Part shown: piece after piece, positions 16,454 through 20,025 of the stretch | Position numbering within the stretch: the first letter of the stretch is position 1 | Layout of the letters: each line of letters opens with the position of its first letter | Assembly (NCBI GenBank): GCA_001782075.1 | Contig: MFNO01000038.1 | Span: 1-34,201 of the forward strand | From: Candidatus Levybacteria bacterium RIFCSPHIGHO2_01_FULL_38_26 | GTDB lineage: Bacteria > Patescibacteriota > Microgenomatia > Levybacterales > UBA12049 | Length of the DNA: 34,201 nt | Direction: 5' to 3' | Translations under genes and position numbers: made by a program | Notes under the pieces: model-generated | The model's input: only the letters and a program-made list of their open reading frames with translations | Database searches by the model: none | Told to the model about the DNA's origin: nothing

Positions 16454-17419
16454 TTAATTACCATTTATTGCTCCTGGTTCCACTGTTCCTTCGGGTAATT
16501 CTGCTCTTTTATAAGATCCAATTATTTTACTCGGAGCATTGTATTTTTTTGGGTCCTTAAGCGTTTCTAAAGCATCTATTACAGATGTATCTTTTCGGTG
16601 GCCATTAAAAGACATCAGGAAAAAGAATTCTCCCATACGATTTGACGTAGGATATGAGCGAATATTCGTAAGGTTGATGTTGTTGCCAGCCAAGACGGTA
16701 AGACAATCTTTTAACATCCCTACGCGATTTTCTTGAGGATAAATTATTGCTGTCGTGATGTCATCTCCGGTCGGTTCTGTTTCCCCTCTCCCAATTAGAT
16801 AAAAACGCGTAGCGTTATAAGGATTGTCTCCTATATTTTCGGCGAGGATTGGCATTTTGTGAATTAAAGCAACTCTTCTGCTGGCAATTGCTGCTGCATT
16901 TGACATGTCTTTAATTTCTTGAACAGCCTTAGCTGTGCTTGTTGTTTCTTGCAATACTGCTTTTGGATAATTTAGTGCAATAAATTTCTTCGATTGACCG
17001 AGTGCTTGCTCGTGAGATAAAATTGTAATTATCTCCTCATTCGTTCTTCCTATCAACATATGCCGAATGGGTACAATAGCTTCGGCAAGTATAGAGGTGT
17101 TTTTGGTTTGAACTAATTTTTTCCAAACATCTACAACGTCTCCCTCAATTAAGTTCTCAACCGGTATAACCCCGATGTCGTATTCTCCTTTATCTACCTT
17201 TTCCACAACTTCCGTATTTTTTTGAAGAAAATCTTTTTGCATTCTGTGCTGCTCGTTACCGGTTAGTAAAACTTCTCTGGCTTCTTCCGTATAAGTTCCT
17301 TCAGGTCCCAAACAGGCTACTTTTGAAGATAGTCTTCCCGGATAAAGTTCTACCTTAACAAGCGATCCGCTGACCTCAAGCCCTACCATTTTATTATTGG
17401 CATGTAATTGCTCAGTCAT
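16454..17419 (-). CDS. pheA: Prephenate dehydratase with ACT domain
   Basis: VACLGPEGTYTEEA, GVIPVENLIEG, ATRFYLIGRGE, ACT segment NINLTNIRSYPTSNRMGEFFFLMSFNGH. Confidence 0.92.
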   Translation of the reverse strand: MTEQLHANNKMVGLEVSGSLVKVELYPGRLSSKVACLGPEGTYTEEAREVLLTGNEQHRMQKDFLQKNTEVVEKVDKGEYDIGVIPVENLIEGDVVDVWKKLVQTKNTSILAEAIVPIRHMLIGRTNEEIITILSHEQALGQSKKFIALNYPKAVLQETTSTAKAVQEIKDMSNAAAIASRRVALIHKMPILAENIGDNPYNATRFYLIGRGETEPTGDDITTAIIYPQENRVGMLKDCLTVLAGNNINLTNIRSYPTSNRMGEFFFLMSFNGHRKDTSVIDALETLKDPKKYNAPSKIIGSYKRAELPEGTVEPGAINGN

Positions 17420-17449
17420 ATTTTTCCAATCGCGTGTAACGCGACCAAC

Positions 17450-17493
17450 AAAAAAACCTCCGCTTAATTCCTGCTTTTGCAGGTATCGGAGGT
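17450..17493 (-). terminator. Leader (attenuator) terminator of pheA, regions 3:4
   Basis: Minus strand ACCTCCG-ATA-CCTGC-AAAA-GCAGG-AATTAAG-CGGAGGT then TTTTTTT. Confidence 0.85.
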
Positions 17494-17533
17494 CGTTTCT
17501 AGTTAGATTTTTTTTACAAAAACCAACCTCCGC

Positions 17534-17581
17534 TTAAGCGAAGGTAAAGAAAAACAAAAATGTCTTTCCTGATTTCTGCAT
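17534..17581 (-). CDS. pheL: Phe-rich leader peptide MQKSGKTFLFFFTFA (PheL-like)
   Basis: ATG CAG AAA TCA GGA AAG ACA TTT TTG TTT TTC TTT ACC TTC GCT TAA; 5 Phe of 15 residues; stop lies in loop of hairpin 1:2. Confidence 0.85.
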   Translation of the reverse strand: MQKSGKTFLFFFTFA

Positions 17582-17590
17582 ATTGAAATA

Positions 17591-17620
17591 ATTATAGCAA
17601 AGATTAGTTTTCTATGTCAA
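17591..17620 (-). promoter_or_regulatory. Sigma70-type promoter of pheL-pheA
   Basis: TTGACA (17615-17620), 18 nt spacer, TATAAT (17591-17596). Confidence 0.9.
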
Positions 17621-17654
17621 CTATCAAACTTGTTTTATGTTTTTAGATTTAAAT

Positions 17655-18068
17655 TTAATCCTGTTTTATTTTTGACCTAAGCGGTTTATAGCCTGCCATT
17701 TGAGTTACTTCATTTAACTCATTCACAAGTGGAGCATGAAGCGCATTGAATTCTGCTCTGGAAATTAGTTTATTTTTTCTTTGCTGGGATAAATCTGCTA
17801 GAATTTGGTTTAGTTCTGCAAGCCTTGTTGTTTCTGGACTTTTTACTTTTTGAGATTGTTTTACTGGCGTGTTAGGCTCAGTGGTTTGTTGGACGAGCGG
17901 AGAGACATATAAAATATGCGAGCGAGGACGATTCTGCTTTAGTATAGATTCTTTTGTTGATAATCCAGATTTTGTTTTTGTCCATCTATCAACATTTTGG
18001 ATAGCTTTATCTGCTGTATTATCTGGAAATGTTTTATTAGACAAAAGTATTTCAGCTCGGTTTCTCAT
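17655..18068 (-). CDS. Hypothetical protein under Ile-rich leader control
   Basis: MRNRAEILLSNKTFPDNTADKAIQNVDRW...; ATG at 18068 preferred over TTG at 18086. Confidence 0.7.
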   Translation of the reverse strand: MRNRAEILLSNKTFPDNTADKAIQNVDRWTKTKSGLSTKESILKQNRPRSHILYVSPLVQQTTEPNTPVKQSQKVKSPETTRLAELNQILADLSQQRKNKLISRAEFNALHAPLVNELNEVTQMAGYKPLRSKIKQD

Positions 18069-18084
18069 AATATTAATTTTCCAC

Positions 18085-18108
18085 AAAAAAACCTCCCGTT
18101 TGGGAGGC
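18085..18108 (-). terminator. Leader terminator, regions 3:4
   Basis: Minus strand GCCTCCC-AAAC-GGGAGGT then T-run. Confidence 0.85.
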
Positions 18109-18137
18109 TTGCGCTTTTTGCGTTTAGAATTTTCTAA

Positions 18138-18206
18138 CTACGCAAAATAACCTCCCTTTGGAGAGGTAATAATAATGCTAATAATTGAGAGTGTTTTCAA
18201 TTTCAT
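18138..18206 (-). CDS. Ile-rich leader peptide MKLKTLSIISIIITSPKGGYFA
   Basis: ATG AAA TTG AAA ACA CTC TCA ATT ATT AGC ATT ATT ATT ACC TCT CCA AAG GGA GGT TAT TTT GCG TAG. Confidence 0.72.
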   Translation of the reverse strand: MKLKTLSIISIIITSPKGGYFA

Positions 18207-18213
18207 TAATTGT

Positions 18214-18243
18214 AATATATCAAATTATCTAGTGGATAGTCAA
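18214..18243 (-). promoter_or_regulatory. Promoter of Ile-rich leader unit
   Basis: TTGACT, 18 nt spacer, TATATT. Confidence 0.82.
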
Positions 18244-18334
18244 GGGGCTTTAGATAATCTATAAATTCACGCATGACAGTATATTAGATACTTCATTTCT
18301 CCAGTCACTGGGTTTGTAAGAAGGGTTTTTTTAT

Positions 18335-19195
18335 TTACTTAATAATTGACCTTGCGCTACCGTCAAAAATAGTTCCAGCAAGAGGCAGCGATTCGTTTTT
18401 ATTTGTAGACGGTTTGACTAGATCAACTTCCCACCATGTGTCGTTTCCATCAGAATTAAGATCAATTCTGGATGCGTTGAAGCCACCTTCTCCAAAATGC
18501 GATCGTATTTGATCTGCAGTTTTAAATAGCTTGTTGTTATCCCTAAGGTATTCGTGGTAGCGATAAACTGCAAATTTTAACTTTTTTTGTTCGCTAATTT
18601 CTGAATTAGCCGCAGTCTTGTGTCTAATTTTTCGTCTTAGCTTACTTAGTTCTCTGTTTATGTCGTAATTTACCAAAGACGGATGATGTAGATTCAGAAA
18701 AACTAATCCGCCAGGTTTAGCTATACGGTAAGTTTCTGCTAGAGCTTGTGATGGCATAAAGTCAAAAGCCATATTACTTACTACTGCGTTAAACTGTTCG
18801 TCTCTAAATGGTAAAGTTCCTCCTGTTGCTTGTACGTGTTCATAGTCTTTTGCCAGTAGGCTAGCTTTGGGAATGCTTGCGATATCTAATGTGACAACCT
18901 GACATGGTGGTTTAATATCGTAGATATCTTTCCATTCTTTTTCCAGGATTTGTCTTCCTGCTCCAAGATCAAGCACATAACTGTCTTTAGGTAGAGCGTT
19001 GATATAAGGATGCACCCTTTTAATTAGCGAGGTTCTACTTAGATCAGGGCTATCTTCTTTATTTCTCCAAAGTTTATTCTTCGCATTCTTTGTATCCAGA
19101 TTATAGAACGAGCTATAGAAGGCATACGACTCGCCTTCAGGATCGGATGCCGGATCGGGTATATGTGATCTAAATTCTGATTCTAACAACACCAT
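18335..19195 (-). CDS. Class I SAM-dependent methyltransferase
   Basis: VLDLGAGR, TGGTLPFRDEQFNAVVSNMAFDF, IAKPGGLVFLNLHH; ATG at 19195 preferred over TTG at 19207, which overlaps the terminator tract. Confidence 0.85.
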   Translation of the reverse strand: MVLLESEFRSHIPDPASDPEGESYAFYSSFYNLDTKNAKNKLWRNKEDSPDLSRTSLIKRVHPYINALPKDSYVLDLGAGRQILEKEWKDIYDIKPPCQVVTLDIASIPKASLLAKDYEHVQATGGTLPFRDEQFNAVVSNMAFDFMPSQALAETYRIAKPGGLVFLNLHHPSLVNYDINRELSKLRRKIRHKTAANSEISEQKKLKFAVYRYHEYLRDNNKLFKTADQIRSHFGEGGFNASRIDLNSDGNDTWWEVDLVKPSTNKNESLPLAGTIFDGSARSIIK

Positions 19196-19204
19196 ATTTT
19201 GCCA

Positions 19205-19230
19205 CAAAAAAAACCCGCCTATTGGCGGGA
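19205..19230 (-). terminator. Leader terminator, regions 3:4
   Basis: Minus strand TCCCGCC-AATA-GGCGGGT then T-run. Confidence 0.86.
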
Positions 19231-19267
19231 TTTCTAAACGGTTTATAAACTAAACCATCCTCCCGCC

Positions 19268-19318
19268 CTAACGGGTAAGAAGGAGGACTAATCTAATAGA
19301 TAAACTTTTTGATTTCAT
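19268..19318 (-). CDS. Leu-rich leader peptide MKSKSLSIRLVLLLTR
   Basis: ATG AAA TCA AAA AGT TTA TCT ATT AGA TTA GTC CTC CTT CTT ACC CGT TAG; 5 Leu of 16 residues. Confidence 0.72.
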   Translation of the reverse strand: MKSKSLSIRLVLLLTR

Positions 19319-19329
19319 TGTTATCACAG

Positions 19330-19359
19330 ATTTTACACAATCCTACTACTTTCTGTCAA
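19330..19359 (-). promoter_or_regulatory. Promoter of Leu-rich leader unit
   Basis: TTGACA, 18 nt spacer, TAAAAT. Confidence 0.85.
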
Positions 19360-19368
19360 GATGGGAAA

Positions 19369-20025
19369 TTAACCCGTCTGCGTTGCTACCACGCGTTCGT
19401 TAGAGAGGCCAAATGTAGTGCCGTGTTTTTTAAACATTGCCCAGTATTGTCTTTTGTTTTTCTTGCTTTGGAATGCGGAAAGCCACGCTCCGGAGTCTTC
19501 AATTTTCATACGGGCGATTATAATTACAGATTTAAGCCACTGGAAAAAGTTGACATGGTATCTTCCTGGTTTTACTACTTGCTGTTGAACTGTAACTTCT
19601 CTAAATTGAATTTGCAGCTCATCTGTGCTTTCAATCAACTGCTGTAGTTCAATTTGTATTTCTTCAAGAGTTCTTTTTGTCTCCTTATTAAATTCCAGTT
19701 GCGTGGTACTTTCACCACGACGCATTTCTCGAAGATACGTGGTTCCTATTTCTCCCCCTTCGATCCCAAAAAATTCATTTTTTTCTTCGTTTTCTATATG
19801 CTCTTTTAGAACCAGTTCTTTGCCCTCAACAAGATCTCCGCTTAATTCTGGATGTATTTTTTGCTCTGTGTGGGAAGTTTTAAGAACCTGGTCTTTAGCA
19901 TCCAATCCGCCTTCTTTTACTAAATCTTTAACAAAAGAATCTCCTACAGTCCTAGTGAGGTTTCTGAATGTTTCGATGCTGTTATCGTTTATAAATTGCT
20001 GTTTTCTGCGGAGTGTTTTATTCAT
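19369..20025 (-). CDS. Hypothetical protein, possibly DUF5660-like
   Basis: Long ORF with ATG start; helical/coiled-coil middle (TLEEIQIELQQLIESTDELQIQ); family recalled only. Confidence 0.6.
   Translation of the reverse strand: MNKTLRRKQQFINDNSIETFRNLTRTVGDSFVKDLVKEGGLDAKDQVLKTSHTEQKIHPELSGDLVEGKELVLKEHIENEEKNEFFGIEGGEIGTTYLREMRRGESTTQLEFNKETKRTLEEIQIELQQLIESTDELQIQFREVTVQQQVVKPGRYHVNFFQWLKSVIIIARMKIEDSGAWLSAFQSKKNKRQYWAMFKKHGTTFGLSNERVVATQTG

Follow-up and report, generated by a model that had tools for sequence, protein, structure and literature searches.

Why should a short reading frame rich in isoleucine codons, followed by hairpins that compete for a common segment, stand in front of a gene for an orphan protein? 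The question is raised by the minus strand of the window, the whole 34,201-nucleotide stretch of Candidatus Levybacteria DNA analysed here. We consider it highly likely that a ribosome-mediated transcription attenuator responsive to isoleucine controls the orphan. The parts of this putative switch, their conservation, and the agreement of leader residue and target in related genomes can be read directly from sequence. The parts are as follows.

18238..18243, minus strand: -35 element TTGACT (from the sequence)
18214..18219, minus strand: -10 element TATATT (from the sequence), 18 nt from the -35 element
18138..18206, minus strand: reading frame of the leader peptide MKLKTLSIISIIITSPKGGYFA with its stop codon (from the sequence and the homologous leader in the related genome G016)
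18185-18183, 18182-18180, 18176-18174, 18173-18171 and 18170-18168, minus strand: isoleucine codons ATT (from the sequence)
18168..18176, minus strand: control codons ATT ATT ATT, immediately before region 1 (in 12 isoleucine leaders the ATTATT columns do not vary)
18160..18167, minus strand: region 1, ACCTCTCC (in the 1:2, or pause, hairpin)
18150..18156, minus strand: region 2, GGGAGGT (identical to region 4)
18141..18147, minus strand: 5' arm of the antiterminator extension, TTTTGCG (2:3 fold)
18116..18122, minus strand: 3' arm of the antiterminator extension, CGCAAAA (2:3 fold)
18102..18108, minus strand: region 3, GCCTCCC (common to antiterminator and terminator)
18084..18097, minus strand: region 4, GGGAGGT, plus T-run, the 3' half of the intrinsic terminator (3:4 hairpin)
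17655..18068, minus strand: orphan protein gene, 137 amino acids (coding-like codon use; an in-frame TTG start at 18086 is also possible)

When the sequence was re-read, the elements named in the preliminary description were all present, with its coordinates correct to the base, and its claim that regions 2 and 4 are identical, both reading GGGAGGT, proved right as well. The leader ATG, at 18206, lies 7 nt past the end of the -10 element, so that the mRNA probably has no, or almost no, untranslated 5' end. The peptide has 22 residues, with five ATT in six codons. All five had been taken as the control run; they are present, but conservation is confined to the final two or three, which adjoin region 1, the upstream ATT ATT pair (18180-18185) being missing from G016 and others. 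The additional TTTTGCG/CGCAAAA hairpin is likewise present but has to be placed differently, since it is nested within the 2:3 antiterminator and lengthens it. The complete antiterminator, GGGAGGTTATTTTGCG...CGCAAAAAGCGCAAGCCTCCC, folds at -21.6 kcal/mol, compared with -13.0 kcal/mol for the 3:4 terminator hairpin and -9.0 kcal/mol for the 1:2 hairpin. Antiterminator and terminator share region 3 and are mutually exclusive; region 4 itself occupies 18097-18091, and the T-run that follows the terminator reaches 18084. The last isoleucine codon abuts region 1, and from the start of region 2 to the leader stop codon it is 16 nt, the spacing most often seen among relatives. The last leader codons, TTT GCG, adjoin the TAG stop and form the 5' arm of the antiterminator extension; a ribosome that has come to the stop would therefore obstruct the extension as well as region 2.

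From this arrangement we infer ribosome stalling, termination and induction in the cell. Transcription would start at or beside the leader AUG. With charged tRNA-Ile plentiful, the ribosome would get to the stop codon and cover region 2 together with the 5' arm of the extension, the 3:4 terminator would form, and transcription would end ahead of the orphan gene. With charged tRNA-Ile in short supply, the ribosome would stall on the ATT run and mask region 1, leaving region 2 to pair with region 3 in the long hairpin extended by TTTTGCG/CGCAAAA; the terminator would then be prevented and the 137-amino-acid protein made.

Related genomes provide further examples of the same design. A DNA search of 100 relatives returned a full-length match to the leader in G016 (79% identity over about 125 nt, E = 2e-24), with the leader peptide MRLQRILTNSIIITSPLGGVIA and the four regions as in the window. 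A pattern scan of GTDB species genomes for isoleucine codons with region 2 and region 3 gave ten matches, nine of the Microgenomates build (including Levybacteria, Daviesbacteria and Curtissbacteria) and one by chance. Behind such leaders stand isoleucyl-tRNA synthetase (ileS) at four loci (L082/L201, L085, L091/L191 and L203), in some with a short ORF between, and citramalate synthase (cimA) at two (L085 and L048/L089). Citramalate synthase opens the threonine-independent pathway to isoleucine. Across 12 isoleucine leaders, the 2:3 hairpin ranges from -16.6 to -26.7 kcal/mol and the 3:4 hairpin from -11.2 to -19.8 kcal/mol, the ATTATT columns beside region 1 are invariant, and in most of them 16 nt separate the start of region 2 from the stop codon downstream. 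The inner antiterminator stems vary in sequence, yet pair in every one. Taken together, the ileS and cimA targets, the invariant control codons and the conserved pairing strengthen the case for isoleucine specificity well beyond what the window by itself would support. The attenuator interpretation first offered is thus supported by the recurrence of isoleucine leaders with identical regions 2 and 4, ileS and cimA among their targets. A scan of ileS genes found no such leader in 30 relatives, the genome of the window included, so that isoleucine control of known isoleucine genes is seen only in other genera.

What, then, is the target in the window? The orphan reads as coding, with a codon score of 0.159 against at most 0.070 in the wrong frames. 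Only one homolog was detected among the 100 relatives (L087, in G016; 37% identity, beginning MGNRAEVSLSN...), which a single-sequence protein search had overlooked, and it too is preceded by an isoleucine leader with the same four regions, the check that the preliminary description had proposed. Structure prediction is confident only in a helical hairpin at residues 78-124. Nothing reliable was found for the orphan in Pfam, NCBIfam, PHROGs, the PDB sequence search, phage records or the fold search. A SHOCT-like helical hairpin, considered for residues 78-124, is unsupported by Pfam, and a match to the MAD6 defence kinase was discarded at 15.4 bits against a cut-off of 460. The isoleucine content of the orphan is 5.1%, compared with 8.4% in its neighbours. 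Between the methyltransferase stop codon and the isoleucine promoter, at 18260-18330 on the minus strand, an out-of-place segment, KNPSYKPSDWRNEVSNILSCVNL, matches a different methyltransferase from G016 (L032 5795-6376) at its C-terminus; we read it as a gene remnant.

The genome of the window, 98.5% complete, has no match to cimA or to ilvD (dihydroxyacid dehydratase), and we therefore regard the organism as probably an isoleucine auxotroph. Its own ileS lies on another contig, with no leader found ahead of it. The absence of a recognisable biosynthetic motif in the target, noted at the outset, holds for the 137-amino-acid protein; together with the missing cimA and ilvD matches it makes the suggested isoleucine link a regulatory one, a starvation response, but offers no clue that the protein makes isoleucine. 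Since relatives carry the same sensor before isoleucine genes, the orphan would probably be switched on in isoleucine shortage, and we take it to be, probably, an isoleucine-starvation-induced protein in an isoleucine auxotroph.

The isoleucine leader has company, as three attenuators lie within 1.9 kb of the window: Leu/methyltransferase, Ile/orphan and Phe/pheA.

19204..19318, minus strand: leucine-type attenuator with leader MKSKSLSIRLVLLLTR and its stop codon (19318-19268), before a methyltransferase gene (sequence, scan)
17620-17615 and 17596-17591, minus strand: promoter of the phenylalanine attenuator, TTGACA and TATAAT (from the sequence)
17450..17581, minus strand: phenylalanine attenuator with leader MQKSGKTFLFFFTFA and its stop codon (17581-17534) (fold z = -6.6)
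16454..17419, minus strand: prephenate dehydratase (pheA), under the phenylalanine attenuator (Pfam PDT, 2.8e-46)

In the phenylalanine attenuator, regions 2 and 4 are again the same (AAGCGGAGGTT). Control of pheA by the isoleucine leader was considered and is ruled out because pheA has its own promoter and attenuator. The leucine-type attenuator, with the Leu/Val run SIRLVLLLTR, comes directly after a DUF5660 gene and before the methyltransferase; a similar methyltransferase stands behind a leucine leader at L162, and in several relatives branched-chain leaders follow DUF5660 genes.

The same scaffold is used throughout the lineage with other residues. Written as GGGAGG-N22..52-CCTCCC-loop-GGGAGGTTTTT, with regions 2 and 4 both GGGAGG, the pattern is present in 109 of the 384 genomes searched in the class, whereas a version with scrambled region 2 matches 7 of the 384; elsewhere in the phylum it was found in 1 of about 177 genomes. 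The leader residue agrees with the target pathway in relatives for Ile, Leu, Cys, Met, Thr, Ser and aromatic leaders. Leucine leaders precede leuA-like genes, or a short ORF and acetolactate synthase; cysteine leaders precede cysteine/cystathionine synthase; a methionine leader precedes MetRS, a threonine leader ThrRS and a serine leader a SerA/SerB fusion; and aromatic leaders precede DAHP synthase, PheRS and prephenate dehydrogenase (TyrA). Promoters of the related leaders are strong, scoring mostly 8-12 out of 12 against the consensus (the control mode being 7), and the -10 element ends mostly 6-12 nt before the start codon.

Small proteins are frequent behind these switches: 56 of the 84 attenuators with a nearby ORF have one of 160 amino acids or less, and 47 of those 56 lack a relative in the set, although the choice of ORF was mechanical, here and for residue composition, and some ORFs may be spurious. 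Leucine makes up 5.5% of the short ORFs behind leucine leaders versus 8.1-10.2% behind other leaders, and F, W and Y together 4.1% behind aromatic leaders versus 6.4-7.4%, which is what one would expect of proteins made while that residue is scarce. For isoleucine, depletion is not clear (5.4% versus 5.4-6.5%).

Several individual arrangements were seen among the relatives. At L187 and L189, an aromatic leader is followed by a further ORF and then by aspartyl-tRNA(Asn) synthetase, so that the residue mismatches the next recognised gene. At L015 (1288-1500), a SAM-I/IV riboswitch precedes a methionine-containing leader (YMMEMMQN) and an attenuator-like terminator, possibly a case of tandem SAM and Met sensing. 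Two threonine-rich leaders with terminators stand in tandem at L041 (4015-4218), ahead of a phosphoserine-phosphatase-like gene. At L151 (77-938), a cysteine leader (NCCCASF) lies before a protein that resembles PIG-L-type deacetylases by eye, with no NCBIfam match, an arrangement that perhaps hints at a low-molecular-weight thiol pathway. Around 1300-1530 of L031, a sequence that looks T-box-like by eye (AAGGATGGGACCGCGGG), with no Rfam match at the gathering threshold, lies upstream of a CCTCCC-type terminator.

Could the locus be something other than a transcription attenuator that reads isoleucine? Because the genome has a GC content of 39%, ATT runs are not rare, and one might have fallen by chance beside unrelated terminator hairpins. 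The leader region, though, folds at z = -5.2 relative to dinucleotide shuffles. A scan that demanded a terminator, an upstream copy of its 3' arm, a short ORF, a promoter and a residue run found two matches in the window, the isoleucine leader and the leucine-type attenuator (matched at 19214-19318), and none in 60 dinucleotide shuffles of it; by the scan criteria the window holds only two hairpin-plus-T-run terminators, and both are attenuators. With the 109 genomes against 7 in the scrambled control and the fit of residue to target in relatives, we give coincidence practically no weight; the comparative data appear in practice to have refuted it already. It is also very unlikely that the attenuator is a relic that once served ileS or cimA, lost its target, and now precedes a dispensable ORF. 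The missing cimA and ilvD matches, the leaderless ileS on another contig and the fast evolution of the orphan (37% identity to its homolog) would fit such a history; against it, no part of the unit (leader, hairpins, stop position, promoter) is damaged, all being conserved relative to G016, the codon use of the orphan is coding-like, and short ORFs behind 56 of 84 attenuators make the arrangement the rule.

A different question is what the switch senses and at which level it acts. Leader peptides ahead of non-biosynthetic genes are often antibiotic sensors, and the orphan is not a biosynthetic gene, so the leader might respond to an antibiotic that targets the ribosome or to stalling by the nascent chain, as erm and ABC-F leaders do, rather than to uncharged tRNA-Ile. 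This we judge highly improbable, given that the leader residue tracks the target pathway in relatives for several amino-acid classes and that ileS and cimA are preceded by isoleucine leaders built alike. A mainly translational switch, with termination secondary, is unlikely but deserves more consideration. Here GGGAGG within region 4 would be a Shine-Dalgarno sequence hidden by the 3:4 hairpin, and indeed an ATG or GTG stands straight after the T-run in 58 of 98 related attenuators, often opening an ORF of 3-4 codons (e.g. window 18080-18083), while the ATG of the G016 orphan lies 7 nt past GGGAGG. However, such a start codon also follows terminators that have no copy of region 2, if more rarely (11 of 34); the first one in the window opens a 3-codon ORF, the orphan ATG being 23 nt downstream of GGGAGG; and the T-run, at 7-8, suits an intrinsic terminator. 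Isoleucine-dependent transcription attenuation is the reading that we retain.

The mechanism of attenuation is already known; what is unusual is the setting, namely a lineage-wide set in the Candidate Phyla Radiation and its coupling to fast-evolving orphan proteins, and we found no report of either in the open-access literature. Microgenomates are tiny bacteria with few biosynthetic pathways, and to our knowledge almost nothing has been described of gene regulation in Candidate Phyla Radiation bacteria. We tentatively raise the possibility that Microgenomates use lineage-wide attenuators on one scaffold with interchangeable residues, much of the set being wired, rather than to biosynthesis, to small, fast-evolving proteins, each induced by starvation for one amino acid, of which the orphan in the window would be the isoleucine member. 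If this were true, such proteins might obtain the nutrient from a host or neighbour, or adjust growth. The leader would be a readable label that names the amino-acid shortage in which an otherwise unannotated gene is switched on. It also suggests that reduced genomes without a biosynthetic pathway retain an amino-acid-specific starvation response. As small natural switches, the attenuators could be tested for function in E. coli.

Among known systems, the T-box riboswitch likewise senses tRNA charging and controls ileS, but the sensor here would be the ribosome. No T-box was matched in the window at the gathering threshold, nor in 17400-19400 up to E = 5, nor at the gathering threshold around 20 ileS genes of relatives. 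Actinobacterial attenuators in Streptomyces and Corynebacterium, found ahead of trp, leuS and trpS (PMC1262725), also have regulatory codons and conserved complementary triples common to antiterminator and terminator, and also serve biosynthesis and aminoacyl-tRNA synthetase genes. They belong to another lineage and use another triple (here CCTCCC); the likeness implies no sequence relation.

Classical attenuation is that of the E. coli trp, thr, ilv, leu and phe operons and pheST (Rfam Trp_leader RF00513, Leu_leader RF00512 and Phe_leader RF01859). Phe_leader is the top-scoring Rfam model over each of the three window attenuators (33.0, 29.2 and 28.2 bits; gathering cut-off 55 bits), the isoleucine leader scoring 33.0 bits at E = 0.0039. 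With scores below the cut-off, the three leaders share the anatomy of Phe_leader but are not members of that sequence family. Like the E. coli attenuators, the window leader encodes a short peptide in which the sensed residue forms a run, and it has four regions, 2:3 and 3:4 pairings that compete, and a T-run; in its relatives the residue matches the target pathway. Unlike them, it starts near-leaderless, draws on one GGGAGG/CCTCCC scaffold reused across many residues, and stands before an orphan protein in a Candidate Phyla Radiation host.
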